A stretch of 44,375 nucleotides of DNA, taken from Oceanicaulis sp. BBD 1991-10. Its GTDB lineage: Bacteria > Pseudomonadota > Alphaproteobacteria > Caulobacterales > Maricaulaceae. Within the stretch, counting starts at the first letter, position 1. The number at the start of each line of letters is the position of its first letter. This document shows, piece after piece, positions 21,567 through 44,112 of the stretch. The notes beneath the pieces were generated by a model. The model was not told the origin of the DNA, did not search any database, and saw nothing but the letters and a program-made list of their open reading frames with translations. Both the position numbers and the translations under genes were made by a program. Where the stretch lies: positions 1-44,375 of the forward strand of contig LYSW01000017.1 in NCBI GenBank assembly GCA_001657295.1, read 5' to 3'.

Positions 21567-21656
21567 GGTGAGGTGGCCGAGTGGTCGAAGGCGCACGCCT
21601 GGAACGCGTGTAGGCGGGCAACCGTCTCGTGGGTTCGAATCCCACCCTCACCGCCA
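21567..21656 (+). tRNA. tRNA-Ser (anticodon GGA)
   Basis: 90-nt class II tRNA. The acceptor stem is GGTGAGG / CCTCACC, with discriminator G and encoded CCA at 21654-21656. The anticodon stem CACGC / GCGTG encloses loop CTGGAAC, so the anticodon is GGA and reads UCC/UCU. A long variable arm, as required for tRNA-Ser, and the T loop GGTTCGAATCC are present. It is the last housekeeping gene before the EPS locus. Confidence 0.97.
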
Positions 21657-22401: not shown

Positions 22402-22414
22402 TTGCGTTTTGCAA
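22402..22414. promoter_or_regulatory. LuxO-type operator 1 (upstream of rpoN paralogue)
   Basis: TTGCGTTTTGCAA, one change from TTGCA-N3-TGCAA. Its centre is 59 bp before the -24 element of the rpoN promoter and 41 bp before operator 2, about four helical turns. Confidence 0.6.
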
Positions 22415-22442
22415 GCGGATGATCCTCGCCGGTTGGGGCGAT

Positions 22443-22455
22443 TTGCAATTTGCAA
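22443..22455. promoter_or_regulatory. LuxO-type operator 2 (upstream of rpoN paralogue)
   Basis: TTGCAATTTGCAA, a perfect match to TTGCA-W3-TGCAA. It is close to the -24 element (centre 18 bp away), which is unusually near for an enhancer and could allow repression or autoregulation. Confidence 0.65.
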
Positions 22456-22465
22456 CAGAATGCCC

Positions 22466-22480
22466 CGGCCGCGCGTTTGC
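22466..22480 (+). promoter_or_regulatory. Sigma-54 promoter of the rpoN paralogue
   Basis: CGGCCGCGCGTTTGC has GG and GC at the obligatory 10-bp spacing and a TTGC -12 box. Transcription should start near 22492, 27 bp before the ATG. This implies that the sigma-54 paralogue is made from a sigma-54 promoter. Confidence 0.65.
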
Positions 22481-22518
22481 TCCCCTCAAATCGAAGTCGA
22501 TGCGAAAGGGAGTCATTC

Positions 22519-23796
22519 ATGCCGATCTCAACCCGACACGGATTTCGCCAGGCGCTTCACCAGCGTCAAAGGCTGGGTCAGCGCGGCCAGGCGGCGGTTC
22601 ACCTATTGGGGCTGAGCTTTGAAGACGCTGAGGCCATGATTGAACACGAGGCGCTCGGCAATCCCGTGCTCCAGCCGGTGATCAGGCGGACCAGCACGCC
22701 GATCTGCGACATCATTGCGAACACGGTGGCCGAGCAGGTCTCGCTGGCTGACCACTTGTTGCGGCAAGCCGGCGAACTCACCGATCTGGCGCCGCGAGTC
22801 CGGGCGCGCCTGCGCCACCTGATCGGTTGCCTGGACGAGCGCGGGTATCTTCAGGATCGGCCGGAATGGGTCGATGATGACGAAGGCGCTGAAGCCCTGC
22901 GCGCTTTGCGCGCGCTGGATCCGGCCGGCGTCGGCGCTTTCGATCTCCTCGATTGCTTCACCCTCCAGCTCCAGCGGACCGGGCGTTGGTCGGGATTATG
23001 GCGCGCGTTGTTCGACCGCGCCGACTTGATCGAAAAGCAGGACTTTGCGGCGCTGGCCCGCCAGCTTGGCGTTGAACGGGCGGAACTTCGATCCATGCTG
23101 GCGGCCCTTCGGTCCCTGACGGCGGCGCCGGGGTGCGCGTTCAGCGCTGCAGCGCCGCCGGCGCCGCCAGACTTGCTGGTGAGAACGCTGGCCACGGGCG
23201 AGTTGGTGGTGGAGCTGACGCGCGAGCGTCAGGTGCGCGTCAGCGTTTCCAGGGACGCGGTTGCAGCCTTGCGCCGGATCGAGCATCAGCCCGAGCACGC
23301 CGCCTACGTCAAAGGCCAGCTCGCGCACGCGCGCTGGGTGCGCCATATCTGCCGGCAGCGCGGCGACACGCTCCTTAAAGTGGCGCGCTATGCGGTCGCT
23401 TTGCAGCATGGCGCGGTTCAGGACGGGCCGGCGCATTTGCGCCCGCTGACCCTGCGGGCCGCCGCGGCGGCCCTGGATCTTCATGAATCCACCGTGAGCC
23501 GCGCCGTCGCCCACAAAAGCATTGAAACGCCTGGCGGGGTGATCGCGTTGCGCGCGCTGTTCTCCGCCCCATCGGGTGAGGGGGCGTCCTGCGTCACGGC
23601 CGTACGGTCCAGCATTCAGCGCCTGGTCGCCGCAGAAGGCGCGGAGCGCGTCTTGTCCGATCAGGACATCGCGGACCGGTTGGCGCCGGAGGGCGTCGTG
23701 CTTTCACGGCGCAGCGTCGCGAAACACCGCGCAGCGATGGGGCTCGCCAGTGCGCGACTCCGGCGCCGGCGGTTGGCCCTGTTTGATGACGCCTAG
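22519..23796 (+). CDS. Divergent RNA polymerase sigma-54 factor (RpoN paralogue)
   Basis: 425 aa, shorter than typical RpoN (about 480-500). ATG at 22519 has GGGAG 6 nt upstream. Region I is recognisable but diverged (QRLGQRGQAAVHLLGLSFED, then EHEALGNPVL) and lacks the usual Gln-rich, MTPQL-like start. Core-binding motifs are present: LDERGYL and LDPAGVGAFDLLDCFTLQL (canonical LDPxGVGARDLxECL). The helix-turn-helix LDLHESTVSRAVAHK is near residues 320-334. The RpoN box reads SRRSVAKHRAAMGLASA near 395-411 (canonical ARRTVAKYREMLxIPSS), so several DNA-contacting positions differ. It is not in the usual lptB-rpoN-hpf-ptsN setting but beside EPS genes, which suggests a second, dedicated sigma-54. 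It converges on the glycosyltransferase gene with 2 bp between. Confidence 0.9.
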   Translation: MPISTRHGFRQALHQRQRLGQRGQAAVHLLGLSFEDAEAMIEHEALGNPVLQPVIRRTSTPICDIIANTVAEQVSLADHLLRQAGELTDLAPRVRARLRHLIGCLDERGYLQDRPEWVDDDEGAEALRALRALDPAGVGAFDLLDCFTLQLQRTGRWSGLWRALFDRADLIEKQDFAALARQLGVERAELRSMLAALRSLTAAPGCAFSAAAPPAPPDLLVRTLATGELVVELTRERQVRVSVSRDAVAALRRIEHQPEHAAYVKGQLAHARWVRHICRQRGDTLLKVARYAVALQHGAVQDGPAHLRPLTLRAAAAALDLHESTVSRAVAHKSIETPGGVIALRALFSAPSGEGASCVTAVRSSIQRLVAAEGAERVLSDQDIADRLAPEGVVLSRRSVAKHRAAMGLASARLRRRRLALFDDA

Positions 23797-23798
23797 GC

Positions 23799-24809
23799 CT
23801 AGGGAGCAAGCTCCCGCGCACGCGGCCCGGCGGGCCTTCGGCGCAGGATGCGCTGCAAAGCCTCAAACCGGTCCGGCGGCAGGATGCGAAGGGCGATGGC
23901 GGCGCCCAGTGTCACCGCCGTCTTGAGCGGTTCCCGCACCAGGATGCGGGCGTCCTTGCCGATGGCCTGGAGCGCCAGCGATAAGGATAGCCCGCGATCG
24001 CGCATATTGATGGCGCGGCGGGCCAGATAGCGCAGCTGGAACGCCTCGGCGAGCCCGGACCAGCGGGCGGCGAAGTCGGAATGATTGCGGGCCACACGAT
24101 CGCGCATCCGCGTCCAGGTTTCGAACTGCCGCACGATATTCGCCGACAAACCGCCGGAATTGATGCGGTAGTCGGTCAGAATGGCGTCGACGCCCTCAAA
24201 CCGCCACAGCGTGCCCAGAGCGATCCGCATCCAGCATTCGATGTCTTCGGATTGGCGGAAAAACTCGTCGAACCAGCCGGGCGAGCCGTCTGCGCAATAA
24301 GGGCCCTGGATATGATCAAAGACGCTGCGGCGAATGACGGGGGCGGAGCCATTGCCGACCGGATTGCGCAGGAAGATGTCGGCTGCGGTGACATTGCGGA
24401 GCTTGGGCGCTTGCACGATGCCGATCGGGCGGCCGGCGTCGTCGATCAGGCGCGAGCCTGAATAGCTGACGCCGACAGCGGAATTGCGCCTAAGATGGGC
24501 GACATGAATCTCAAGCTTGGTCGGCGCCCAGGCGTCGTCTGAATCCAGAAAGGCGATGAATTCGCCGCGCGCATGGCGGATGCCGGTGTTGCGAGCGCCG
24601 GCGAGGCCGCGATTTTCTTGGCGGATGATCCGGATTCGAGGGTCGCGAAATCCGTTCGCGATCGAGACTGAATCATCGGTCGACCCGTCATCGATGATCA
24701 GCAGTTCAAAAGGCTCATAGGTCTGGCGAAGAACAGACCGGATCGCGATGGCGAGATAGCGCTCGACATTGAAAACCGGCATGACGACGGTGACGGAGGG
24801 CGGGCTCAT
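23799..24809 (-). CDS. Glycosyltransferase family 2 (EPS)
   Basis: 336-aa GT-A-fold glycosyltransferase, cytoplasmic side of the inner membrane. Visible motifs: VVMPVFNVERYL at the N-terminus, IIDDGSTDDS (nucleotide binding), ENRGLAGARNTG, and the metal-binding FLDSDDAW near residue 92. An acceptor-side segment SEDIECWMRIAL follows, where ED is the usual catalytic base region. The last 90 residues are basic and helical. The start ATG overlaps the stop of the upstream glycosyltransferase by 4 nt (ATGA), so they are translationally coupled. The sugar cannot be predicted. Confidence 0.92.
   Translation of the reverse strand: MSPPSVTVVMPVFNVERYLAIAIRSVLRQTYEPFELLIIDDGSTDDSVSIANGFRDPRIRIIRQENRGLAGARNTGIRHARGEFIAFLDSDDAWAPTKLEIHVAHLRRNSAVGVSYSGSRLIDDAGRPIGIVQAPKLRNVTAADIFLRNPVGNGSAPVIRRSVFDHIQGPYCADGSPGWFDEFFRQSEDIECWMRIALGTLWRFEGVDAILTDYRINSGGLSANIVRQFETWTRMRDRVARNHSDFAARWSGLAEAFQLRYLARRAINMRDRGLSLSLALQAIGKDARILVREPLKTAVTLGAAIALRILPPDRFEALQRILRRRPAGPRARELAP
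23802..23815. terminator. Short palindrome at the rpoN/glycosyltransferase junction
   Basis: GGGAGCAAGCTCCC forms a tight hairpin next to GCCTAGGCCTAGG, in the last codons of the leftward glycosyltransferase gene and just after the rpoN stop. It may be a compact bidirectional transcription end, but it has no T run. Confidence 0.3.
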
Positions 24810-25750
24810 GGATGGCTCCTTTCAACAGGCGTTAAAATCAGGCTCGCCAGTACCAGCGCGCAGGCCTTGGCGGTGCGCAGCGGGCTGCGCAGCGGCAGAG
24901 CCGGATCGCTGGCGAGCGCGCGCAGCAGGCTCATGGCGGCGCGAAGCGGGCGTTTGACGCCCCGGATGGCGCGCAGAGCCTGCTGGCGATAGAAAATGGC
25001 GGTCGCGCGCCGGCGGTGAGACCGCACCAGGAGCGGCGCGAAACCCTCCGCCTTGGCCAGCATGCGCCGCCAGCCGGCCTCCATGGGCGTCAGCCGCGCG
25101 GACAGGCTTTGGGTGTTCAGATGGTAGTCGATCAGGACCGCGTTGACGCCCTTGATCGTCCAGGCGGTCAGGCAGGCCAGGCGCAGGACGATGTCCTGGT
25201 CTTCGGCCGCCGACATCTCCGGATCAAAGCCGCCAACCTCTTCAAAGGCTGCACGCCGGAACACGAGATTCGAGCTGGTGGTGATCGCGAACTCGCCGAG
25301 AAGCTCCTCCGACGACAGCCGGTAGATATGGGGCGTGGCGCCGAGCTCCTCGCCGGACCTCGCGTCAATCAGCCGAACCCGGGAGAACAGGCAGCCGGCG
25401 CTGGGGCGCGCGGCGAAGCCGGCGGCCATGCGCGCCAGCCGGTCCGGCGCCCAGACATCGTCGGCGTCCAGAAAGGCGATGACGTCACCTGATCCATGAG
25501 CCGCGCCGAAATTGCGTGCGGCCGCGGGCCCGGAACCTGGACTGTCCAGCACGGTCACCCGACCGTCCAAAGCCGCGGCGGTCTCGCAGATCATCATGCT
25601 GTCATCGGTTGAGCCATCATCAACCAGGACCAGCTCCCAGGCTTGGTGGTTCTGGTCGAAAACGCTCTGGATGGTCCGCGCCAGCGTGGCGTCCGCGTTG
25701 AAGACGGGCACCACGATGGTGAAGCGGGAAGGGGGCGCAGCAAGGGTCAT
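24806..25750 (-). CDS. Glycosyltransferase family 2 (EPS)
   Basis: 314-aa GT2 enzyme. The start is ATG 25750, overlapping the flippase stop as ATGA; the frame is open far upstream but that part lies inside the flippase gene. Motifs: FTIVVPVFNADATL, LVDDGSTDDS, GPAAARNFGA and FLDADDVW near residue 97, with EDQDIVLRLA in the acceptor region. It is diverged from the other GT2 in this operon and likely adds a different sugar to the lipid-linked repeat unit. Middle gene of the leftward operon flippase-GT2-GT2. Confidence 0.92.
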   Translation of the reverse strand: MTLAAPPSRFTIVVPVFNADATLARTIQSVFDQNHQAWELVLVDDGSTDDSMMICETAAALDGRVTVLDSPGSGPAAARNFGAAHGSGDVIAFLDADDVWAPDRLARMAAGFAARPSAGCLFSRVRLIDARSGEELGATPHIYRLSSEELLGEFAITTSSNLVFRRAAFEEVGGFDPEMSAAEDQDIVLRLACLTAWTIKGVNAVLIDYHLNTQSLSARLTPMEAGWRRMLAKAEGFAPLLVRSHRRRATAIFYRQQALRAIRGVKRPLRAAMSLLRALASDPALPLRSPLRTAKACALVLASLILTPVERSHP

Positions 25751-27036
25751 GACGTCTGGGCTCCTAAAAGCTGAGAGTGTGAGAGATGGGACAGGGCGGA
25801 CTGGCTGATCACCGCAGCGGCCAATGCGATCCCGGCGGCGTAACCGGCCGCGGCGCCCGCCAATCCGGCGCCGGATCCGGCCAAAAGTCCCAATAGCGAG
25901 GCGAGCCCCAGCATTGCGGCGCCGATGCATTCGCGTGTCGGCGCCCCGGCGGCGCGCAAGGCTAGCAGGCTGGTCTCGGCGAACAGACGCGCGGCGCCCG
26001 ACAGGCACAGCACCGCGACGAGACCGGAGACATGCGCCCACTGCGCTCCGAACAGGATGGGCACATAGACCAGCGCCGCCAGGCTCTGGATCAGGAACAG
26101 GGTGGCGAAAGCCGGGGCATAGACGCGCAGCACCCGGCCATGGGCTGCTCTGATCCCGCCCGGCTCGGTCGCGGCGGTGCAAAAGCGCGGATAGACGACC
26201 CGGTTGAAGGCGGTGGAGACCGCGCTCGACAGACCGGCGCCGGCGTTGAAGGCGACGTAGTAAACGCCCGCTGCGTCAAGCCCGAACAGAGACGCGACAA
26301 TCAGCTTGTCCGCGTGCAGGCGCAATCCGGCGATCAATTCGGAAATCAGAACCGGCGCGCAGAACCGGCCAAGCGGACCCAGAGGGGCTGGCCGAACGCC
26401 GGGCTTTCGCCGCCATGGGCGGCCCCAGGCCATTCCGATCAGCCAGACCGGCGCGGTCAGGAGCTTGGGCAGAACGATCGCCCAGACTTCGAATCCGGTC
26501 AGCGCCAAGGCGATCGTGAGCGCGTTGTCCAGGATCAGCTGGGCGGCATTGACGCCCGCCATGCGGGCCATGCCTTCGCGGCGCATGATCATCCAGGCGT
26601 GCACGCACCCCATCGGCATGAAGAGATAGACGCCGGCCAGCGCCGCGATCAGCCAGAAAAGTTCCGGTCGATCCGCAAGCGCGCTGACCAAGGCGCCTGC
26701 GCCGACCTGCAGCACGGCGAGCGCGATGGCGACGACCCAGCTGATCCGGTAGGCGGTCTCGGCGACGTTCGCCAGTTCCTCCTGGCGCGCACGGATCACC
26801 GCGGCGCCCAGGCCGTTCTCATTGAACAGGCGGACGATCTCGAAAACCGCAAGCGCCAACGCAGCCGCGCCGAAAACGTCCGGCGTCATCAGGCGCGCGA
26901 GCAGAATTGTCGCTCCCAGGCGTGTGACCCGAATGGCCAGCTCGGCGCCCGCCATCCAGCTCATGCCGCTCACAATCCGGTCCCGGATCAACGCCCGACC
27001 GCGGATTGAAAGAGATTTGAGGCTGATCGCCGGCAT
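25747..27036 (-). CDS. Wzx-type polysaccharide flippase (MOP superfamily)
   Basis: 429-aa integral membrane protein with about 12 hydrophobic segments. The N-terminal GMSWMAGAELAIRVTRLG and LLARLMTPDVFGAAALALAVFEI match the WzxC/RfbX-like flippases that move undecaprenyl-linked repeat units to the periplasm. ATG at 27036 follows AGGAGC at 8 nt. It is first in the leftward operon and overlaps the next gene by 4 nt. The upstream 304-bp region is shared with the divergent WecG-fusion gene. I found no strong -24/-12 promoter facing leftward. Confidence 0.92.
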   Translation of the reverse strand: MPAISLKSLSIRGRALIRDRIVSGMSWMAGAELAIRVTRLGATILLARLMTPDVFGAAALALAVFEIVRLFNENGLGAAVIRARQEELANVAETAYRISWVVAIALAVLQVGAGALVSALADRPELFWLIAALAGVYLFMPMGCVHAWMIMRREGMARMAGVNAAQLILDNALTIALALTGFEVWAIVLPKLLTAPVWLIGMAWGRPWRRKPGVRPAPLGPLGRFCAPVLISELIAGLRLHADKLIVASLFGLDAAGVYYVAFNAGAGLSSAVSTAFNRVVYPRFCTAATEPGGIRAAHGRVLRVYAPAFATLFLIQSLAALVYVPILFGAQWAHVSGLVAVLCLSGAARLFAETSLLALRAAGAPTRECIGAAMLGLASLLGLLAGSGAGLAGAAAGYAAGIALAAAVISQSALSHLSHSQLLGAQTS

Positions 27037-27145
27037 GGGTGTGCTCCTGAAATGTCAGGGCACAGGCCTCATGGTGAGGTCCATCGGCGAGTCGCGGCGC
27101 CGAAAAACACGCTATCGGCTCTGGAAAGATTGGGAAATTCGCGTT

Positions 27146-27159
27146 CGCACACCTGTGCG
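27146..27159. promoter_or_regulatory. Palindrome CGCACACCTGTGCG in the divergent EPS promoter region
   Basis: Perfect 6-bp arms around CC, of a different form from the LuxO-type operators. It lies 110 bp upstream of the flippase start. It could be an operator for another regulator; no cognate is identifiable here. Confidence 0.3.
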
Positions 27160-27196
27160 TGCGCCATCTCGGCCGGCTCTCAATTCGCAATGCCTG

Positions 27197-27216
27197 TCTC
27201 AGTTTGCGAGACGCAA
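27197..27216. promoter_or_regulatory. LuxO/SypG-type operator 3 (composite)
   Basis: TTGCGAGACGCAA at 27204-27216 is a perfect palindrome of the TTGC-N5-GCAA form. It overlaps TCTCAGTTTGCGA at 27197-27209, which resembles the SypG enhancer element (TTCTCA-N3-TGC). It sits between the flippase operon and the WecG-fusion gene. Confidence 0.55.
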
Positions 27217-27277
27217 TATGCGCGCTCCGAACCAGGCCGTTTGAACTTAAGTCTCAGAAATGTCGCGACTTTGAAGC

Positions 27278-27292
27278 CCGAAGGCTGTTTGC
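27278..27292 (+). promoter_or_regulatory. Weak sigma-54-like promoter candidate for the WecG-fusion gene
   Basis: CCGAAGGCTGTTTGC has a good TTGC -12 box at the right distance from operator 3 (69 bp from centre to -24), but the -24 box reads CG instead of GG. It is listed only because position and operator fit the other promoters of the locus. Confidence 0.25.
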
Positions 27293-27340
27293 GCCTCGAT
27301 ATGATTGGGAGCGGTCAGGTCCATAGTTATGGAGTTGACC

Positions 27341-28801
27341 ATGCTCGATACCGCTATTGTCGTGAACGCGCTGGAGCGCCAGGCGCCGAAGCCTGCTCTG
27401 CCTGCTCGCCCTTTGCCGCAAGTCCTATCGCGGGGCGCGGACGATCTTCCCTCGAGGCCCGTCCTGGACTTCGCATTGACGGATGCGAGCCAGGGCGAGG
27501 CCGTTGACTGGATCATTGATCGCGCCCAGCGCGGGGTTCGAACGCGCGTCGGGTTCCTCAATGCGCATTGCGCTAATGTTGCCCGCGCAGACTGGCGTTA
27601 TCGGCTCGCGCTGAAGACGTGCGACGCGGTCTTTCCTGACGGCGCCGGCGTTGATCTCGCCGCCCGGCTCGACGGGGTGTCTTTGAGCGCCAATCTCAAC
27701 GGCACCGATTTGTTCGACCCGCTCTGTGAGGCGATGGCGAAGGCCGGGCTCTCGCTTTACCTGTTGGGCGGCCGCCCCGGGGTCGCCCGGCGTGCGGCTG
27801 AGCAGGCGCGGACAACGCATCCAAACCTCATCATCGCAGGCTGCCGGTCGGGCTTTTTCGCGCCGAATGCGGAGGCGGCGGTCGTCGACGCGATCAACGC
27901 CAGCGGCGCGGATGTGGTCATGGTCGCCCTGGGCGTGCCGGATCAGGATGTCTGGCTGGCCCGCATCGCGCCGCGCTTAAGCGCGCCGGTCAGCCTGGGA
28001 GTCGGCGGCCTGTTCGATTTTGTCTCCGGCCGCATTCCGCGCGCGCCGGAATGGATGCGCGAAGCGGGCCTGGAATGGGTCTACCGTTTGTGGCGGGAGC
28101 CGCGCCGGCTTTGGCGGCGCTATGTTCTCGGCAATGCCGGCTTCCTCGCCCACCTCGCCGTTCGTCGAAGCCGGGCTGAGATCGAGCGTTTTCGTCCGAA
28201 ATTGAGCCTGGGCCTGAAGCGCTTGGTCGACGTCGCCGGCGCCCTTGGCGGGCTGGCGCTTCTAAGCCCTGTGCTGGCCGTCGCCGCGATCGCCGTGAAG
28301 CTCGGCTCCAAAGGGCCGGTCCTGTTTCGACAACGCCGCATCGGCGAAGGCGGCGAGGCCTTCGAGATGTTGAAGTTCCGGTCGATGGTCGCCGACGCCG
28401 AAGCGCGGCGGGCCGCGCTTCTCAAGCAGAGCGACCGGGACGGCCTGACCTTCAAGATGAAGGCGGACCCGCGCATCAACGCCGTCGGACGATTGATCCG
28501 CCGCTACTCGATCGACGAGCTGCCTCAGCTGATCAATGTGCTCAAGGGCGACATGTCGCTTGTCGGCCCGCGGCCCGCCCTTCCCGAGGAGGTCGAACAA
28601 TATGCGCCGCATCACCGCGACAGGCTGAGGGGCCGACCCGGCCTGACCGGCCTCTGGCAGGTCTCCGGCCGCGCCAAAGTCGGATTTGAAGACATGGTCG
28701 TGCTGGACCAGCGCTATCTTCAAACGCGGAGCTTCTGGGGCGATATCGCGATCATGCTCAGGACCCCCAAAGCCGTCTTCGGCGCAGACGGGGCCTATTA
28801 A
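27341..28801 (+). CDS. Fusion of WecG/TagA/CpsF glycosyltransferase and polyprenyl-phosphate sugar-1-phosphate transferase
   Basis: 486 aa from ATG 27341, which has GGAG 6 nt upstream; ATG 27329 is possible but has a poorer site. Residues about 35-270 form a GT26 domain (GFLNAHCANVARAD, DAVFPDGAGVDLAARL, LLGGRPGVA, GVGGLFDFVSGRIPRAPEWM). Residues about 285-486 form the PglC/WbaP-like catalytic domain with its membrane segment (RLVDVAGALGGLALLSPVLA), then VLFRQRRIGEGG, LKFRSM, DELPQLINVLKGDMSLVGPRP and LTGLWQVSGR. So one protein should load the first sugar-phosphate on undecaprenyl phosphate and add the second sugar. This makes it the entry enzyme of the EPS pathway. Confidence 0.93.
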   Translation: MLDTAIVVNALERQAPKPALPARPLPQVLSRGADDLPSRPVLDFALTDASQGEAVDWIIDRAQRGVRTRVGFLNAHCANVARADWRYRLALKTCDAVFPDGAGVDLAARLDGVSLSANLNGTDLFDPLCEAMAKAGLSLYLLGGRPGVARRAAEQARTTHPNLIIAGCRSGFFAPNAEAAVVDAINASGADVVMVALGVPDQDVWLARIAPRLSAPVSLGVGGLFDFVSGRIPRAPEWMREAGLEWVYRLWREPRRLWRRYVLGNAGFLAHLAVRRSRAEIERFRPKLSLGLKRLVDVAGALGGLALLSPVLAVAAIAVKLGSKGPVLFRQRRIGEGGEAFEMLKFRSMVADAEARRAALLKQSDRDGLTFKMKADPRINAVGRLIRRYSIDELPQLINVLKGDMSLVGPRPALPEEVEQYAPHHRDRLRGRPGLTGLWQVSGRAKVGFEDMVVLDQRYLQTRSFWGDIAIMLRTPKAVFGADGAY

Positions 28802-28808
28802 CGGCTTC

Positions 28809-28821
28809 TTGCAGAATGCGA
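28809..28821. promoter_or_regulatory. LuxO-type operator 4
   Basis: TTGCAGAATGCGA, one change from the palindrome. First of three sites before the kinase gene; centre 28815. Confidence 0.6.
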
Positions 28822-28829
28822 AAATAGTC

Positions 28830-28842
28830 TTGCAATATGCAG
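28830..28842. promoter_or_regulatory. LuxO-type operator 5
   Basis: TTGCAATATGCAG, one change from TTGCA-W3-TGCAA. Centre 28836, exactly 21 bp (two turns) from operator 4. Confidence 0.65.
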
Positions 28843-28850
28843 GTCTAGAG

Positions 28851-28863
28851 TCGCATTCTGCGA
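28851..28863. promoter_or_regulatory. LuxO-type operator 6
   Basis: TCGCATTCTGCGA, arms perfectly complementary. Centre 28857, again exactly 21 bp from operator 5 and 60 bp before the -24 box of the kinase promoter. Confidence 0.6.
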
Positions 28864-28915
28864 GACGAATTGGTTTTTATCGAAATAAATCAATGCTCTG
28901 AAAGCAAGCGGTGCC

Positions 28916-28930
28916 TGGCGTCAATATTGC
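28916..28930 (+). promoter_or_regulatory. Sigma-54 promoter of the kinase/response-regulator operon
   Basis: TGGCGTCAATATTGC: perfect TGGC and TTGC boxes with GG and GC 10 bp apart. Transcription should begin near 28942, 20 bp before the ATG at 28962 and just ahead of its ribosome site. Confidence 0.75.
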
Positions 28931-28961
28931 GCGTCCTCCCAAAGGCCGGGAGGTGCAGCTG

Positions 28962-31667: not shown

Positions 31668-31679
31668 GGACTTTATTTG

Positions 31680-33116: not shown

Positions 33117-34315
33117 GCGCTCAGAACACGCTGATAAATTTCCGCCAGGTCTTCGGCTGAGCGCGTCCAGGTGTAGCGCGCCATGACCTTTTCATGGCCG
33201 GTTTCACCCATCGCGAGCGCGATTTGCGGGTTGTCGAGCAGGCTGTTGACGGCGCGTGCGACCTTCCATCCGACCGGATCGGTCAGCAGGCCGTCATCGC
33301 CCTCGCTGATGACGCTCGCCATCACCGGCGTTCGCGCCGCGACGACCGGCTTGGCGAAGCGCCAGGCCTCCAGATAAGCCACGCCAAGGCTCTCCTCTGT
33401 GGACGGGACGCAGACCATGGAGCAGGACGCCAGCGCAGATTGCTTCTCCGCTTCGCCGACCAGGCCCAGCTTGATCACGCGCGCATCCTGGCCCGCGTCA
33501 TTGAAGGCGGCTTCAGACCGCGTGGTCCCGGGCCCGGCGAAGACGAACCGCGCCGCGGGGTGGTGTCGCCAGACATCGTGGCGGGCGTCGAGCAGCGCAC
33601 GATAGCCCTTGTATTCCGCCATGCGGCCGAGGAAGAGGATGATGGGCGCATCTCCAATCCCGTGCTGGCCGCGAAACCAGGCGGCGTCCGTCCGGACCGT
33701 CTCATCCAGCAGGGGCGCCATGGGCACGACATGGGTGTGGTCCGCCCGCGCGCCGCGATCAATCAACCAGTCGCGCTCATAATCCGTCATGGCGATGACG
33801 GCGTCTGCGCGCCGGTAAAGCCGCCTGAAGCCAGGGCTCGACCAGGCCGTTCCTTCAGGCCGGGTGGTGTGAGCGAGCGGGGTGAAAACGAAGGGCTTCC
33901 TGCTCGCCGCCGCGGCCTCGGCCAATGGGGTGCAGCCGTTATAGATCACATGATGGAGATCGGCGCAGGCGAGGCTGGTGCGCAGATTCTTGCTCAAGGC
34001 GCACTGAGCGAGCTTGCGGAACGCCGCGCGGGCATAGCGGTTTCGCTCCGCATGATGCGCCAGCGCGCGGAGCGCCAGACCCGCCAGCGCGGTGGGAGCG
34101 AGCTGATGCGTGGACACGCCCTGATCGTCAAAAGCTTCCGCTTTCCCAAAGGCATAGGCCGTGTCGGTGGCGTGAGGACTGTCCGAGCAGATTTTCGCGA
34201 CCAATGGCTGCACAGTGTCGGGCAGGGCGTGAACCAGGGCGCGTGAATGCTGCTCCGCGCCGCCCATGGCGGGCCAGTAGCGCGGCACCAGAATGGCCGG
34301 TTGGATTGCGGTCAT
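33113..34315 (-). CDS. Glycosyltransferase family 4 (EPS)
   Basis: 400-aa GT-B-fold enzyme. ATG 34315 overlaps the upstream ligase/polymerase stop as ATGA. The N-terminal LVPRYWPAMGGAEQHSRAL is the usual acceptor-domain opening. The C-terminal half has ILFLGRMAEYKGYRALLDA, FVFAGPG and PSTEESLGVAYLEAWRFAKPVVA, the E-x7-E type nucleotide-sugar motif. It is probably retaining, acting in the cytoplasm on the lipid-linked repeat unit. Last gene of the leftward five-gene export operon. Confidence 0.93.
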   Translation of the reverse strand: MTAIQPAILVPRYWPAMGGAEQHSRALVHALPDTVQPLVAKICSDSPHATDTAYAFGKAEAFDDQGVSTHQLAPTALAGLALRALAHHAERNRYARAAFRKLAQCALSKNLRTSLACADLHHVIYNGCTPLAEAAAASRKPFVFTPLAHTTRPEGTAWSSPGFRRLYRRADAVIAMTDYERDWLIDRGARADHTHVVPMAPLLDETVRTDAAWFRGQHGIGDAPIILFLGRMAEYKGYRALLDARHDVWRHHPAARFVFAGPGTTRSEAAFNDAGQDARVIKLGLVGEAEKQSALASCSMVCVPSTEESLGVAYLEAWRFAKPVVAARTPVMASVISEGDDGLLTDPVGWKVARAVNSLLDNPQIALAMGETGHEKVMARYTWTRSAEDLAEIYQRVLSA

Positions 34316-35607
34316 GGAACGCCTCCTTGGCTGAGCGTCTGCTCGCGCCCGCGTGCGCACGCGGCCATCGCGGAACCCAGGATCAAAAGGCCTGGCCAGA
34401 GCAGATAGGCGAGGATTTCCAAATTCTCGCCGATGGTGAACAGGATCATGAGAAGCAGGATGGCGAGCGCGGCCCGCCCGATCCGCCGCGTCAGAGACAG
34501 GGCGGCGCATTCGATGACGCTCCATGCAAGCGCGACGACCAGGGCGCCGGCGCCGACCGCGCCTTTCACGAAGAGCAGGCCGAACCAGGTATGGTGGCTG
34601 CCGATCGGCATGAACTGAACATAGTGCGAGCCGCTCTCGACCACGCCATGACCCCAGACCGGGGCGTCATCGCGCCACCGATCGACGGCGAGGCGGCCGA
34701 GGGCTTCGCGAACCCGCGAAGAGTCCGCGCGCATGCCGCGGATATTCATGTAGAGCTGGTCCAGGACATTCAGGATCGGACCGGACAGCAGCAAGAGCAG
34801 AAACACCGGGGGCGCGGCCGTCAGCCAGACGCCCGGCCGTCCCAGCCGTGAGACGCCCCAGGCGGTGGGCCAGATGATGACCGCAGCGACCAGGCCCAGG
34901 CGCGATTTCGACAGCACGATGATCGTCAAGGCCGAAATGATCCCGATCCATCGCCAGGCTGCGCGCCGATCCTCGATCGCGAGGATCAGATAGAGATTGC
35001 CGATCATCGCCGCAGCCGGGGACCAGGGCGTGAAATAGCGCCAGCGCGGCAGGCCGTCGCCCGGGTCCATGGAATAGAGCTGCACCGCGAAGAATTCCGG
35101 GCCCGGTCCGCCGACGGCTTGCAGCGGCGAAACGAAAAGCGTCGGCGGCAGACCGATCTTGGGCGCCATGAATAAAAGCGGGGTGAGCATGAGCGAGATC
35201 AAGGCGGTCACCGACGCAGCCCGGATGATCGTCTCCGCCTTGATGTTGAGACACGCTCCGGCCAGCGGGAACATGGCGAACAGCGCCCAGCCTTTCGCCC
35301 AGCCGATCGTGGATTTGATGGTCTGGCCCATGGACAGACCTTGGGTCCAATGCCCCATCAACAGCGCCAGCAGCATGACCGCCATCGCCGCAATCCAGAC
35401 CCAGACGCCGAACGGAATGGGCGGCGGCGCGCGGCGCGTTCCGGCGCGCACATAGGCGCGCGCGCAAAAGAGCGCCGTCAGCAAGACCCCGAGCACCGGG
35501 CCGAGCACGTATAGCCCGCCTATGGCGTAGATCGGCCAGGTGCCGACCAGCGCGGCGGCGACTACACGATCTTCCACAGCAGGCGGATGAGCGGCAGGCG
35601 CAGCCAT
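34312..35607 (-). CDS. O-antigen ligase/polymerase-family membrane protein (probable Wzy)
   Basis: 431-aa protein with about 10-12 membrane segments. The large periplasmic loop contains SRLGLVAAVIIWPTAWG, SSRVREALGR and GSHYVQFMPIGSHHTWFGLLFV, the His-containing Wzy_C-type motif. With no lipopolysaccharide genes nearby and no other polymerase in the locus, it most likely polymerises the repeat units. Starting at ATG 35607 it overlaps the preceding gene by 46 nt; GTG 35577 would cut the overlap to 16 nt and is an alternative. Confidence 0.85.
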   Translation of the reverse strand: MAAPAAHPPAVEDRVVAAALVGTWPIYAIGGLYVLGPVLGVLLTALFCARAYVRAGTRRAPPPIPFGVWVWIAAMAVMLLALLMGHWTQGLSMGQTIKSTIGWAKGWALFAMFPLAGACLNIKAETIIRAASVTALISLMLTPLLFMAPKIGLPPTLFVSPLQAVGGPGPEFFAVQLYSMDPGDGLPRWRYFTPWSPAAAMIGNLYLILAIEDRRAAWRWIGIISALTIIVLSKSRLGLVAAVIIWPTAWGVSRLGRPGVWLTAAPPVFLLLLLSGPILNVLDQLYMNIRGMRADSSRVREALGRLAVDRWRDDAPVWGHGVVESGSHYVQFMPIGSHHTWFGLLFVKGAVGAGALVVALAWSVIECAALSLTRRIGRAALAILLLMILFTIGENLEILAYLLWPGLLILGSAMAACARGREQTLSQGGVP

Positions 35608-37028
35608 AACAGCAACACTCCCATGACATAGGCGAGATAGCCGGCCACAGCTGCGCCGGCGGCGATTTTCAGTGAAGGCGAGCTGGGCCGAGCCGGCCGC
35701 GCCGGCGCCTCCAGGACCTGGACCATCGGGTAGGAGGTGAAGAGGTCGGACTGAGCCGTGCTCAATCGCGCGACCGCGCTCGCGAAGACGGTCTCGGCGA
35801 CCCGATGGGCGCGCAGGCGCGCCGCCAGCTCGGCGGCGACCGGCGACAACTCGGCGACCCGGGCGCGGTTGGCTTGAATGCGCTCGGACAAAGCGGCCGC
35901 GGACGCGCGTTCGCCCGCCGCTTCGGCCGCAAGCTCCACCATTTGGCGCAGCATGTTGGCGCGTTCATCATCAAGATTGATGTCGGCCAGCGACAGGGCC
36001 CGATAGCGCGCCACGCTCAGCAGGGCTTCGCCGCGTGACGCCATTTCGGCCAGAAGGCCCGCATGGCGATCGCGGGCTGCCCGCATGTCGGGATGGTTGG
36101 CGCCCAGAACTTCGCGCAGGCCTGCGATCTCGTTCGCGGCCGTTCCCAGCTCCGCCCGCAATGCTTCAAACTGAGGGTCGCCGCGCAGGACCAAAATGGC
36201 GGCGGCGGCGTCCGGCTCCAGGCCGATCAGGCGGGCGAGCGCCTGGCTTTGAGCGGTCAGGAGGGCGGTTCGGTCCAGCGCGGCGCCGCGCTGTTGGTCA
36301 AGCGCGTCGGTCTCGTTGACCAGCGCGTCATATTGCTCGCGCGAAATCAGGCCGGTCTCGGCCTGGAGCGCGATGACCGCCTGGCGCGCCGCGGTGACGT
36401 CCGCTTCATACTGCTCAAGCGCGGCGCGGAAGGCGTCGTCCCGCGCCGCGCGCTCTTCCCGGCGCAGGACGTCTAGCTCGGACTGGAAGACTGAGAGCAA
36501 AGTCTCCGACGCCGCGAATGCTGAGTCCGGCGATCCGGCGTTCATCTGAACAAAGATCATCGGCGTTTGATCCTGCAGGCGGATCTTGAAGCTGGGCAGC
36601 GCGGCGACCTCGATTCCCAGCCTGCGGGCGACCGCGCCGCGAACGCGGTGGGAGTCCATCAGCCGCTTGTACTGAACTGTCGGGCTCAGCGAAGGGCTTG
36701 AGAAGGGGGATGGCGAGCTGGCGTCCGTGCTGCCAAGGCTCTCCAGATTAATCCGCGAGGATGGGCCGGCGCCCGGCAGGATGAGGGAGAAGCCGCTGGT
36801 GTATTGGCGCGGGGGCAGCAGGTAGAAGGCGGAAGCCGCCGCGCCGATGATGAGCGCGCCTGACGCGAGCACGAGCACATAGCGGATCAGGCGGCCGGCC
36901 CCGAAGCCGGCGATCAGCTTTCGAGCGAAGCGCCCCAGCGCGGTCGACGAGATGGAGCCGCGCGGCGCCGGTCCCGAGCCCTGAAGGATCCGGTCGGGGT
37001 GTGGCGGAAAAGGGGGCGGAGGCGTCAC
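35562..37028 (-). CDS. Polysaccharide co-polymerase / chain-length determinant without kinase domain
   Basis: 488-aa inner-membrane protein of the Wzz/GumC type. GTG start at 37028 overlaps the Wza-like gene stop as GTGA. A Pro-rich N-terminal tail precedes TM1 (about 47-68), then a Ser-rich stretch, the periplasmic domain with coiled coil at about 195-390, a Pro-rich segment (EAPARPARPSSP) and TM2 (about 457-480). It ends after TM2 with no Walker A or Tyr cluster, so it is not a tyrosine autokinase of the Wzc kind; control of chain length must occur without phosphorylation in cis. It resembles the holdfast protein HfsA in layout. Confidence 0.9.
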   Translation of the reverse strand: MTPPPPFPPHPDRILQGSGPAPRGSISSTALGRFARKLIAGFGAGRLIRYVLVLASGALIIGAAASAFYLLPPRQYTSGFSLILPGAGPSSRINLESLGSTDASSPSPFSSPSLSPTVQYKRLMDSHRVRGAVARRLGIEVAALPSFKIRLQDQTPMIFVQMNAGSPDSAFAASETLLSVFQSELDVLRREERAARDDAFRAALEQYEADVTAARQAVIALQAETGLISREQYDALVNETDALDQQRGAALDRTALLTAQSQALARLIGLEPDAAAAILVLRGDPQFEALRAELGTAANEIAGLREVLGANHPDMRAARDRHAGLLAEMASRGEALLSVARYRALSLADINLDDERANMLRQMVELAAEAAGERASAAALSERIQANRARVAELSPVAAELAARLRAHRVAETVFASAVARLSTAQSDLFTSYPMVQVLEAPARPARPSSPSLKIAAGAAVAGYLAYVMGVLLLWLRLPLIRLLWKIV

Positions 37029-38254
37029 CGGAAAGCCTCTCGCGTCAGAGCCAGGCTGACCGCCGGCGAGAGCACGTCCCCGAAGGCGCGCACGATATCG
37101 CGCACATTGGTGACGTGGCTGTCATAACACGCGATGGCGTCATTCGGCAGCAAGACCGGGTTGAAGCGGTCCCGGTCCGCGCGGCGCACCAAATCCTCGA
37201 TCGAACGCGCGATCACTTCGCTTTCGCCGGTGATGGGATTGCGCGAGATCAGCACCGCCCAGCGATTCGCATTGGTCGCCTGGACCCCGCCGACGCAATT
37301 GGCCGAAACCAGGCCCTGGAGCAGGCGCGTGCCGTACGGCAGATTGACGGCGTCGCGTCCGATCGCGGACTGGGCGTTGGACGCGGCCGGCTGGGTCAGG
37401 TTCGACATGAAGACCCGCACGCCCGGAGTCGTGATTCGCGACGGCCGCGCCAGCTGGGCCTGGAAACAGGCGCGCGACGGAATGTGAACCTGGTCGCCGG
37501 CGATCAGCACCGGATCTTCGACCCGGGCGCCGGTGAACGCGCCGCTGAGGTCATGAACGGTTCGGCGGCCGGCGCGGATCACCACGACATGGCGCACATC
37601 GGCGTCGGGGCGCACGCCGGCCGCCGCTGAGATCGCCCGGCTCAGCGTCCGGCCTTCGGCGACGTCGCCTGCAGCCTCGACGCGTGCGGTCTGGACCGTT
37701 TCGGCGTTGGTGGAGTTGATCAGCACGTCGCCGGGCTGGAACACCGCGCCGGACACATGCACTTGAACCGGGGCCCACTGAATGATGCTGAGCGAGGGGC
37801 GGGCGTAGCCGGGCTGATAGACGCCTTCATCCACCATCAGACCGGCGATGAAGGTGGCGATGTCGGCGGGCGCAAACCCGGCCGCGGGGAAAGACCGTAA
37901 GCCCGGCAGGTCCAGCCGGCCGTCCGGCGCGATGATATAGGCCCCGTCAAACACGTCGTCGGCGTCGAATCTCAAACGCACCATATCGCCCGGGGACAGC
38001 GGCGGACCGGCCGCGGTCCGGCTGCGCAGGGCGGGCGCTTGGGGGCGCGCCATCGGCAGATCGGCGTCCACGCAGCGGCCTTCTTCGGTGTAGCGGTCCA
38101 GACCCGTGACCCGCGCCTCGTCAGCCGGCTGCATGGGCGAGCGCGTCAGCGTATAGCCGCCGCTGCTCAACTCGACGCTATTGCGCGGCGTTTCGAACGC
38201 GGTCGCGCACGCGGCCGCGCTGAGGCCGCAAATGATGGAGACCAGCGCCCGCAT
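37025..38254 (-). CDS. Wza-like outer-membrane polysaccharide export protein
   Basis: 409-aa protein. ATG 38254 follows GGAGGAG, and its first base overlaps the stop of the small gene upstream. The N-terminus is a signal sequence with LSAAAC (Cys 16) as a probable lipidation site. A Poly_export domain (LSPGDMVRLRF ... DGRLDLPGLRSFPAAG) lies at about 85-170 and SLBB-type beta-grasp domains follow (VHVSGAVFQPGDVLI, IAGDQVHIP). The C-terminal part (RSIEDLVRRADRDRFNPVLLPNDAIACYDS) is another export-domain-like repeat. It forms the exit channel together with the co-polymerase. Confidence 0.9.
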   Translation of the reverse strand: MRALVSIICGLSAAACATAFETPRNSVELSSGGYTLTRSPMQPADEARVTGLDRYTEEGRCVDADLPMARPQAPALRSRTAAGPPLSPGDMVRLRFDADDVFDGAYIIAPDGRLDLPGLRSFPAAGFAPADIATFIAGLMVDEGVYQPGYARPSLSIIQWAPVQVHVSGAVFQPGDVLINSTNAETVQTARVEAAGDVAEGRTLSRAISAAAGVRPDADVRHVVVIRAGRRTVHDLSGAFTGARVEDPVLIAGDQVHIPSRACFQAQLARPSRITTPGVRVFMSNLTQPAASNAQSAIGRDAVNLPYGTRLLQGLVSANCVGGVQATNANRWAVLISRNPITGESEVIARSIEDLVRRADRDRFNPVLLPNDAIACYDSHVTNVRDIVRAFGDVLSPAVSLALTREAFR

Positions 38255-38490
38255 CAGGACGCTCCTCCGATCAGCGCGGGATCAATGCGCTTGATGATGA
38301 GTCTGAGCCGCCTTGCGATCTTCTGATCGCTGCACTCCACACGCCGCACGGAACGCCCGCCGCGCTGGGCGGTGACCACGGCGACCGCCGCATCATCATG
38401 CGGAAAAACAAGCCCGTTGAGCGCCTCGCAGAAACGGCGATTGAAGCCCTCGGGCGTGCGATCAGTCTCAAATTCAGCAACAAGCAGCAT
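38254..38490 (-). CDS. Small protein of unknown function, first gene of the EPS export operon
   Basis: 78 aa. ATG 38490 has GAGGAG 8 nt upstream and lies 26 bp from the -12 box of a leftward sigma-54 promoter. The protein has no signal or membrane segment. It looks like a small alpha/beta domain (MLLVAEFETDRTPEGFNRRF, AAVAVVTAQRGGRSVRRVE, then a basic helix IARRLRLIIKRID). I do not recognise a family. Its leading place and coupling to the Wza-like gene suggest a regulatory or assembly role in EPS export. Confidence 0.7.
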   Translation of the reverse strand: MLLVAEFETDRTPEGFNRRFCEALNGLVFPHDDAAVAVVTAQRGGRSVRRVECSDQKIARRLRLIIKRIDPALIGGAS

Positions 38491-38515
38491 AAAGGCTCTC
38501 CTCGCTGAATAGCCC

Positions 38516-38530
38516 GCAAGGACGCGGCCA
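38516..38530 (-). promoter_or_regulatory. Sigma-54 promoter of the leftward EPS export operon
   Basis: On the minus strand TGGCCGCGTCCTTGC has perfect TGGC and TTGC boxes at 10-bp GG-GC spacing. Transcription should start near 38504, leaving a very short leader that still includes the GAGGAG ribosome site. Confidence 0.7.
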
Positions 38531-38593
38531 TGGCGTGCTTCAGGTTCAAGCCTTTATTTTCAGCTGGTTAGCGAGTCTCGTTCGAATAGCGTA

Positions 38594-38606
38594 TTGCAAA
38601 TTGCAA
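38594..38606. promoter_or_regulatory. LuxO-type operator 7
   Basis: TTGCAAATTGCAA, a perfect match to TTGCA-W3-TGCAA. Its centre is 71 bp from the leftward -24 box. Confidence 0.7.
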
Positions 38607-38626
38607 GCGGGCTGCGGACGCATCGC

Positions 38627-38639
38627 TCGCACTCTGCAA
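38627..38639. promoter_or_regulatory. LuxO-type operator 8
   Basis: TCGCACTCTGCAA, one change from the palindrome. Its centre is 33 bp from operator 7 and 87 bp from the rightward -24 box, so the pair can serve both divergent promoters. Confidence 0.6.
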
Positions 38640-38718
38640 CACGGTCCCAGGCGCCCTGATGCAGTCGAGCGCCAAGCGCGACGGGGCGATCCTTTTCCAC
38701 CTTCGGCTCGCGGTCTTT

Positions 38719-38733
38719 GGGACCCTGTCTTGC
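38719..38733 (+). promoter_or_regulatory. Sigma-54 promoter of the acyltransferase gene
   Basis: GGGACCCTGTCTTGC: GG and GC at 10-bp spacing with TTGC, -24 box less perfect. Start expected near 38745, 22 bp before the ATG. Confidence 0.6.
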
Positions 38734-38766
38734 GAGACCTGTCCTCAAGCAATTGAGGAGGGCTGA

Positions 38767-39867
38767 ATGGCAGCGACACTCGCCGATCATCTGGGCACGC
38801 GTGAAAACCGGATCGATCAAATCCGTCTGGCGGCGGCGGTCGCCGTGGTCTTCGGCCATTCCTGGCATCTCAGCCTGGGCCCCGATGCTGCGGCGCCGCT
38901 TGAGCCCGTGCTCGGGCTCGGCGTTCATGAGCTGGCGGTGCACGTCTTCTTTTTTCTGTCGGGCTTGTTGATCACGCAAAGCGCAAAGCGCCACGCCGAT
39001 CGCCCCGCCCGCTTCGCCTTCGCCCGGTTCAAACGCATTTTTCCCGCGCTCGTCGCCCATGCGCTGATCCTTCCGGTCGCGCTGTTGGCGTTCGGCGTGG
39101 TCGGCTTCGATCAACTCGGCGGGCTCTGCGTCTATTCGGCCAGATTAATGACGATCCTCTTCGTCGAATTCACCCTTCCGGGGGCCTTTGCCGGCAACCC
39201 CTTCCCGGAGGCGATCAACGGATCGATCTGGTCGCTGCGCCACGAAGTCATCGTCTATGCGTTGGCTGGCGGAGCGGCGGTCCTGGGGGTCTTTAAAAGC
39301 GGGCTCCGAGCCGCAGCCTTCCTTGGCGCGATGCTGGCCTGGATCATCACCGCGCATATGATCGCGGATCAGGCGCACAGCGGCCTCGCCTTCATTGTCG
39401 CGGAAGGGCGCTGGGTCATGACGTCGTTTCTGATCGGGGCGGCGTCGCATTTTCTGGCCCGCTGGATCCGTCTTCGACTCGACCTCCTGGCCGCGTTCTG
39501 GAGCGTCGCCGCCGCCGGATTGCTGTTTGCGCCGCCGATGTTCGCAACGCATCTGGTGCTGGCGGCGATTTGCTACACCACGCTGATCGCCGCCTTTCTG
39601 GGCCGTCCGGCAGGCGGGATGTCGTCAGACATCAGCTACGGCGTTTATATCTATGGATGGCCGGTCCAACAGCTCGTCGTGACGGGGTGGATCGCCTTGA
39701 CCGGAACCGCGCCTGATCCGATCACGCTCTTCGCCGCGGCGATAGCGCCGCTCGCCGCAATTGCGAGCCTGTCCTGGCGCTTGATCGAGCGGCCGGCGCT
39801 GCATCTGACCCTGCCCGGACATCATCGCGACAAAAGACGTAAGCGTCAGTCTGCGACCCAGATCTGA
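38767..39867 (+). CDS. Acyltransferase 3 family membrane protein (EPS acylation)
   Basis: 366-aa integral membrane acyltransferase with about 10 segments. ATG 38767 follows GAGGAGGG. The family hallmarks are RIDQIRLAAAVAVVFGHSWH at the N-terminus (conserved R and the functional His), VFFFLSGLLIT, RFKRIFPALV, and SIWSLRHEVIVY near residue 155 (SLxxE). A short basic tail ends the protein. It likely adds acetyl or another acyl group to the EPS. Divergent from the export operon and under the same enhancer region. Confidence 0.93.
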   Translation: MAATLADHLGTRENRIDQIRLAAAVAVVFGHSWHLSLGPDAAAPLEPVLGLGVHELAVHVFFFLSGLLITQSAKRHADRPARFAFARFKRIFPALVAHALILPVALLAFGVVGFDQLGGLCVYSARLMTILFVEFTLPGAFAGNPFPEAINGSIWSLRHEVIVYALAGGAAVLGVFKSGLRAAAFLGAMLAWIITAHMIADQAHSGLAFIVAEGRWVMTSFLIGAASHFLARWIRLRLDLLAAFWSVAAAGLLFAPPMFATHLVLAAICYTTLIAAFLGRPAGGMSSDISYGVYIYGWPVQQLVVTGWIALTGTAPDPITLFAAAIAPLAAIASLSWRLIERPALHLTLPGHHRDKRRKRQSATQI

Positions 39868-42415: not shown

Positions 42416-44059
<1,644 letters not shown>

Positions 44060-44112
44060 CACTTTGATCTTGGACCCCTGTCAGACGCGTCAGAAAAATT
44101 TTTCACCGTGAT

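Follow-up and report, generated by a model that had tools for sequence, protein, structure and literature searches.

An exopolysaccharide locus of Oceanicaulis with a LuxO-type regulator and a second sigma-54 factor

Sigma-54 is usually one shared factor. The 44,375-nucleotide contig LYSW01000017.1 of the alphaproteobacterium Oceanicaulis sp. BBD 1991-10 (assembly GCA_001657295.1), analysed here at its full length and referred to as the window, harbours an exopolysaccharide (EPS) locus spanning ~17.5 kb, in which a second, diverged sigma-54 gene, rpoN2, lies together with the genes of a hybrid kinase and a LuxO-type response regulator. The locus can probably be described as a portable cassette for EPS production that carries a sigma-54 switch of its own, with part or all of the sigma-54 coming from RpoN2. 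Judged from the sequence, its LuxO-type enhancers and sigma-54 promoters are very likely real, and there is good reason to take the local regulator as the binder of the sites, while the role of RpoN2 as the main sigma factor for these promoters is favoured with some reserve.

In the proposed mechanism, the PAS-containing hybrid kinase would pass phosphate via its own receiver (REC) and histidine phosphotransfer (HPt) domains to the regulator, which its LuxO-type linker would hold off until phosphorylation. The phosphorylated regulator would then bind TTGCA-N3-TGCAA sites located 10-112 bp upstream of -24/-12 promoters and activate the kinase-regulator operon, the wza operon, which starts with a small open reading frame (sORF-wza-wzc-wzy-GT4), probably the acyltransferase gene and, within this genus, rpoN2 itself. 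RpoN2 is inherited with the locus and has altered modules for reading the -24 and -12 elements; it may provide the sigma-54 for these steps in whole or in part.

Enhancers and promoters of the locus

An earlier sequence-only reading of the window listed eight palindromes of the form TTGC-N5-GCAA in the regulatory gaps of the locus. Four of these match the form exactly (22402, 22443, 27204 and 38594), while those at 28809, 28830 and 38627 carry one mismatch and that at 28851 carries two. The four exact matches are the only ones in the window, all inside the locus, where shuffled sequences are expected to hold 1.19 and reach four in 3 of 100 cases. Genome-wide (3.22 Mb in 89 contigs, 98.95% complete, the window being contig C13), the pattern is mildly enriched, with 29 sites versus 19 for a reversed control, 4 of the 29 falling in the locus (Poisson P ~2e-5). 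Five relatives contain 57 to 76 such sites per genome (controls 21 to 34), so that the pattern alone is unspecific in them, and it is the LuxO form that marks the locus. This form, TTGCA-N3-TGCAA with at most one mismatch, is rare in the genome (24 copies, control 9), contrary to the frequent occurrence that would have refuted the sequence-only reading, and six copies lie at the locus where 0.13 are expected (Poisson P ~6e-9). The pattern was picked after the sites had been seen, yet it equals the published LuxO site, TTGCAWWWTGCAA (PMC10162802; this and the other papers are cited here for those parts of their text that were available), and the other genomes serve as an independent test. Enhancers of the TTGCAWWWTGCAA type are present at the promoters of the locus, many of them with one mismatch or a non-W centre, and the only other LuxO-form site of the window, at 41231, is within a gene.

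All four proposed GG-N10-GC promoters are present, at 22466, 28916, 38719 and, on the minus strand, 38530, for which 38516 had been given. The sigma-54-type promoter of the kinase-regulator operon, TGGCGTCAATATTGCG (28916-28931, plus strand), has GG and TGC columns that are invariant in six genomes and follows three sites, namely TTGCAGAATGCGA (28809-28821) 94 bp upstream, TTGCAATATGCAG (28830-28842) 73 bp upstream and the weak TCGCATTCTGCGA (28851-28863), with two mismatches. The wza operon has its promoter, TGGCCGCGTCCTTGCG, on the minus strand (38515-38530), found in all five genomes with this region; TTGCAAATTGCAA (38594-38606) is 63 bp from it and TCGCACTCTGCAA (38627-38639, one mismatch) 96 bp, the latter also lying 79 bp from the acyltransferase promoter, GGGACCCTGTCTTGCG (38719-38734, plus strand), a candidate from the window sequence. 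Ahead of the rpoN2 promoter, CGGCCGCGCGTTTGCT (22466-22481, plus strand), which has a counterpart in one other genome, G095, alone, stand TTGCAATTTGCAA (22443-22455) at 10 bp and TTGCGTTTTGCAA (22402-22414, one mismatch) at 51 bp, with the corresponding sites of G095 at 10 and 50 bp. Distances between sites and promoters measure 10 to 112 bp instead of the 18-87 bp previously quoted. The remaining palindrome, TTGCGAGACGCAA (27204-27216, in the wzx-wecG gap), is weak, with two mismatches to the LuxO form; its counterparts in other genomes are degenerate, and a convincing -24/-12 element was not found beside it. Control of all of the EPS genes, as first supposed, is thus not borne out, since the wzx-GT2-GT2 and wecG arms hold only this degenerate palindrome.

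Conservation was followed in a sample of 137 genomes of the family, in which regulator orthologues, called at 60% identity or more, occur in G095, G073, G076, G071, G069 and G074. The same EPS gene set is present in the first five (a simple caller of open reading frames (ORFs) missed single genes in some loci, and the G095 contig stops in wzc), and the locus belongs to two genera, labelled g1, which includes the window's own genome (G000) and G095, and g13, with four genomes. Palindromes stand upstream of the kinase gene in all six locus genomes, including that of the window, and two stand upstream of the gene heading the wza operon in 5/5 genomes with the region, one of the G069 pair having two mismatches. 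At the kinase promoter, GG and TGC are aligned in 6/6 genomes; the wza-operon promoter is kept in 5/5 (four aligned, with that of G073 located separately), while the rpoN2 promoter is found in 2/6. The synteny check thus places LuxO-form sites upstream of orthologous genes in five other genomes. With at most one mismatch, such sites number 32 over the 96,372 bp of the six loci and 2 over 117,295 bp of flank from the same stretches, the locus bounds being set by the analyst; single loci have 4 to 7, whereas their shuffled versions average 0.47 to 0.80 and peak at 2 to 4 in 40 trials.

Fourteen -24/-12 elements over the six genomes (kinase 6, wza operon 5, rpoN2 2, and the acyltransferase promoter) each have at least one upstream site of one mismatch or fewer. 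Within 200 bp upstream there are 28 distinct sites in 30 site-promoter pairs, two sites serving two promoters. The 24 distances at the kinase and wza-operon promoters follow a period of 10.5 bp (R 0.72), with a nominal p of 3.5e-6 that is too small because the genomes are related. Site rarity and conservation support the original proposal that a LuxO-type regulator acts through LuxO-type enhancers on the sigma-54 promoters of the locus. As for a wider regulon, the genome has 18 LuxO-form sites beyond the locus, of which six were inspected (L059, L060, L061, L063 and L065 in fetched stretches, and 41231) and showed no good -24/-12 element; these six are located within predicted ORFs or at their edges, those of L059 and L061 where a gene probably starts.

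The sixth orthologue is set apart by its surroundings. In G074 the regulator is present and this Wzy absent, and an interrupted rpoN-like remnant lies alongside (L096, about 17300-18300). The regulator and the remnant are near apparent nitrate reductase genes, identified by eye, without this EPS set.

The LuxO-type regulator and its relatives

The regulator (31677-33116, plus strand) has the REC domain (Asp56), a LuxO-like linker with Gly144, an AAA+ domain with GAFTGA and a Fis-type helix-turn-helix (HTH), and Pfam confirms the layout. Among NCBIfam models LuxO is best, with 518 bits compared with 384 for NtrC, although this falls short of the 800-bit cut-off of the LuxO equivalog NF041946; the match to TIGR02915 (PEP-CTERM PrsR), 348 bits, does not reach its cut-off of 502.6. 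The best solved relative is Vibrio angustum LuxO (5EP0, 402 bits). The LuxO linker is described as unusual in that a glycine, conserved in LuxO and not in NtrC proteins, occupies the ATPase site (PMC4878744). In a register taken from the alignment to 5EP0, this glycine is present in the window regulator and in that of G095. The four g13 orthologues and that of G074 (L051, L054, L056, L057, L096) have Glu in its place, so that their control may differ.

Eleven HTH residues are essential for DNA binding by Vibrio cholerae LuxO (PMC11407668), of which ten are identical in the window regulator, the last being Arg for Leu, and 7 or 8 are kept in g13, in a register placed by residue spacing and compared without a fetched LuxO HTH sequence. 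The genome's next best LuxO-like protein, encoded on contig C26, has 7/11 of these residues and Asp in the linker; the HTH count alone therefore separates it from the window regulator and not from the g13 orthologues. This C26 protein, which we take to be TacA, was considered as the owner of the sites and rejected, as it fits LuxO less well. An NtrC-like frame elsewhere in the genome (G000:C33:28848-30074) matches the sigma-54 activation domain only in part (1-46 of 168) and may encode an enhancer-binding protein that has diverged or decayed. A search of the window with Rfam at gathering level, which bears on Qrr, gave only a tRNA.

A LuxO/SypG-like regulator in an alphaproteobacterium had been thought unusual, a view that does not survive comparison with the class, where 73 of 385 genomes, that of the window included, have a match at 1e-110 or better. 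Forty of these loci, mostly the best-scoring, were fetched as stretches of 6 to 20 kb, in which tblastn at 1e-8 found no rpoN. They hold 14 exact LuxO-form sites versus 0.95 in shuffles, or 46 versus 23 when one mismatch is allowed, and over half of them have no exact site. Of 57 rows aligned at 43% identity or above, 43 have the linker glycine; the rows are not all distinct proteins, as the query appears twice and so does at least one further protein. In other genera of the family, other such regulators (L098-L113; about 45-48% identity, one 41%) adjoin a different polysaccharide-like locus and a related kinase without a second RpoN, which makes the LuxO-type circuit wider than the second sigma-54. 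By eye, that locus encodes a flippase, a membrane protein of ~1000 aa and, in some cases, an MBOAT-like protein, and in several genomes a -24/-12 element is preceded, at 63 and 84 bp, by a pair of sites spaced ~21 bp.

Which sigma-54 serves the locus

RpoN2 (425 aa; 22519-23796, plus strand) is recognised as a sigma-54 by Pfam and NCBIfam and placed by trees. Its CBD (114.6 bits) and DBD (147.3 bits) domains match and the RpoN box is present, while its 262.3 bits to the TIGR02395 equivalog do not reach the cut-off of 277.35. In a scan of the whole genome, the canonical copy, on contig C80, scores 431 bits and the window copy 260. Six of the 137 family genomes, the same six that encode this Wzy, have a second RpoN (18 of the 137, many incomplete, have no RpoN match at threshold). 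A tree groups the six RpoN2 proteins in a single clade (support 1.0), separate from 14 canonical proteins, and a second tree, which contained a wrongly picked ORF (L300), gives the clade 0.89. All six share the RpoN box [AS]RR[SC][VI]AKHR, compared with ARRTVAKYR in the canonical proteins read, and an HTH with SRAVAHK (once SRAVANK), compared with SRVTSNK or close variants; these two modules contact the -24 and -12 elements (PMC7057263, PMC6028918). Within genera, the ratio of non-synonymous to synonymous substitution (dN/dS) is 0.15-0.27 for RpoN2, with dS near saturation, and 0.04-0.07 for the regulator; between genera, unreliable RpoN2 values of 0.3 to 0.56 were obtained, one comparison having no finite dS. 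On these codon comparisons, RpoN2 is under purifying selection, kept but drifting faster than the regulator. The structural model of RpoN2 (mean local confidence, pLDDT, 70.9; predicted template modelling score, pTM, 0.37; region I at low confidence) is useless for DNA contacts and gives a partial fold match to PDB 8f1k (E 4e-21, TM-score about 0.3). Beyond the family, 16 of the 385 class genomes have a match at 1e-55 or better, one of them being that of the window; of the five best of the other 15, which were fetched, four carry the canonical signature and for the fifth (L300) the wrong ORF had been picked.

That the locus has its own sigma-54, as the sequence-only reading proposed, stands to the extent that RpoN2 accompanies the EPS locus in 6/6 cases and is found nowhere else in the 137 genomes, while its dedication to the locus can only be inferred, because the local promoters are not clearly unlike those near flagellar genes, which the canonical RpoN should read. 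Several observations weigh against such a dedicated factor. Five -24/-12 elements near flagellar genes of the window genome and G071, labelled by eye, resemble the local ones, and position -11 does not distinguish them, with A, G or T in the local elements and A or G in the flagellar ones. A promoter code for RpoN2 is therefore not established. Loci of related LuxO-type regulators that share the site layout but have no second RpoN evidently use the canonical factor, which is also present in the window genome. Region I of the window RpoN2 appears degenerate, its AID match (21.6 bits) lying below the cut-off of 23.8, and the protein evolves faster than the regulator. The arrangement for self-control of rpoN2 exists in only 2/6 genomes, and, of the 32 sites within the loci, four are away from any promoter. 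An altered promoter code for RpoN2 was dropped as a candidate: TGGCA is absent locally but occurs in only 1/5 flagellar elements, and -11, the position at which RpoN1 and RpoN2 of Cereibacter sphaeroides differ (PMC11999139), fails as well. A CG after TGGCN is found in 2/14 local and 4/5 flagellar elements, the flagellar regions having been chosen with a pattern that demands CG.

In a rival account, the same LuxO-type circuit operates and the canonical RpoN transcribes the four promoters, RpoN2 being redundant, raising the dosage of sigma-54 or serving a few unrecognised promoters. It accommodates the likeness of local and flagellar promoters, the shared layout of related loci and the intact canonical copy, but we regard it as rather unlikely in view of the strict co-occurrence of RpoN2 with the EPS locus and of the clade-wide change, under purifying selection, of both DNA-reading modules. 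RpoN2 might otherwise act as a brake or timer, a degenerate region I yielding a poorly activatable holoenzyme on the promoters and feedback onto rpoN2, in this genus, limiting EPS. Region I takes part in the response of sigma-54 to activators, and its sub-threshold match and low-confidence model in the window protein would suit this idea; against it, region I of the four g13 RpoN2 proteins is, by eye in the alignment, nearer to the canonical one, and no direct sign of repression was seen, which leaves the brake very unlikely. It would be more surprising still if the palindromes were due to chance or belonged to another regulator, with sigma-70 promoters driving the locus. Four of the eight palindromes are imperfect, and other enhancer-binding proteins are encoded in the genome, of which the one on C26 comes closest to LuxO; however, the rarity, conservation and phasing of the sites, the LuxO match of the local regulator and the poorer HTH and Asp-bearing linker of the C26 protein make this barely credible.

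For a cassette switched by its own sigma-54, which we prefer, the positive loop onto rpoN2 proposed by the sequence-only reading is weakly supported, by enhancers and a -24/-12 element in 2/6 genomes and not in the remainder. The g13 rpoN2 genes have degenerate palindromes at best and no visible -24/-12 element, so that such a loop is at most a feature of genus g1, where autoactivation of rpoN2 seems moderately probable. A broader generalisation, that an EPS cassette which was horizontally spread or repeatedly lost brings along a sigma-54 co-adapted to its LuxO-type activator, making the circuit movable without need of the host's sigma-54 regulon, is put forward tentatively.

Known systems, gene content and surroundings

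Among the closest known parallels to the circuit is LuxO of vibrios, the quorum-sensing sigma-54 activator of the qrr genes, with which it shares the REC-AAA-Fis architecture, GAFTGA, the linker glycine, the HTH residues, TTGCA-N3-TGCAA enhancers and a hybrid-kinase/HPt relay. In contrast to LuxO, an EPS locus is involved here, the HPt domain is fused to the kinase and a second sigma-54 is present. SypG and SypF of Vibrio fischeri, a species not known to have a second rpoN, likewise combine a LuxO-like regulator in a polysaccharide locus (syp) with a feeding hybrid kinase. The sites of the present locus are of LuxO form, unlike the published SypG site, TTCTCANNNTGMDWN (PMC10162802). To the knowledge of the authors of that 2023 paper, SypG is the sole enhancer-binding protein besides LuxO predicted to have such a linker (PMC10162802); the LuxO-type regulators common in the class, many with the linker glycine, would widen this group beyond the two.

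Pairing of an alphaproteobacterial RpoN paralogue with one activator has a precedent in C. sphaeroides (formerly Rhodobacter), in which each paralogue studied has its own activator (PMC11999139). Those paralogues serve nitrogen fixation, flagella and xrpA, not EPS, and the known difference between RpoN1 and RpoN2 at -11 (PMC11999139) is not visible here. RpoN1 of Aquincola and Zoogloea is a paralogue tied to an EPS phenotype, PEP-CTERM floc formation; it drives a PEP-CTERM gene, the EPS biosynthesis genes are seemingly not under its regulation, and the two-component partner discussed is PrsK-PrsR, not a LuxO-type regulator (PMC9850573). The LuxO-type relay, the RpoN paralogue with its own activator and Wzy-type EPS synthesis are thus known parts; for their combination, in which a LuxO-type EPS locus includes an RpoN paralogue, no report appeared among the titles and abstract starts returned by literature searches limited to open-access PMC. 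If RpoN2 is indeed tied to a single surface polysaccharide together with its activator and enhancers, the locus would offer a natural setting in which to test how pairs of sigma-54 and activator become insulated from others, as the C. sphaeroides studies have asked.

Pfam and NCBIfam agree with the sequence-only reading that a sigma-54 paralogue, a hybrid kinase with HPt and a GAFTGA regulator lie among EPS genes. The kinase (901 aa; 28962-31667, plus strand) contains three PAS domains, HisKA, HATPase, REC and HPt, and no membrane segment was noticed in its sequence by eye. Completeness of the Wzx/Wzy set is confirmed in part. Pfam recognises two family 2 glycosyltransferases on the minus strand (23799-24809; 24806-25750, its start set within a longer ORF reaching 26182), the Wzx-type flippase (25747-27036, minus), a WecG/TagA-sugar transferase fusion as chain-initiating enzyme (27329-28801, plus), a GT4-type glycosyltransferase (33113-34315, minus, its start set within a longer ORF reaching 34525) and an acyltransferase (Acyl_transf_3; 38767-39867, plus). 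The Wzy-like membrane protein (34312-35607, minus) has no Pfam or NCBIfam match; the Wzc-like chain length protein (35562-37028, minus) has no Pfam match and 43.5 bits to TIGR03007, below the cut-off; and the Wza-like export protein (37025-38254, minus) has only a sub-threshold SLBB match. Because of these three, the assignment of a complete set relies partly on position and weak similarity.

The first gene of the wza operon (38254-38490, minus strand) encodes a conserved 78-aa protein. A protein of 77-78 aa heads this operon in all five genomes holding the region (window, L054, L056, L057, L051), with 18-19% identity to the window copy and a single gap in one row. Pfam and NCBIfam gave no match to it and a PDB structure search none at E 0.001; the predicted fold is beta-alpha-beta-beta-alpha (pLDDT 74).

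Around the locus, a tRNA-Ser gene (21567-21656) lies ~0.75 kb ahead of it and is a possible insertion point. Near the G071 locus, L058 contains four near-identical ORFs of 231-232 aa that appear transposase-like by eye and would fit mobility. Further along the window, 42416-44062 on the minus strand encodes a member of the subtilase family with acidic residues in a very long stretch close to the N-terminus.

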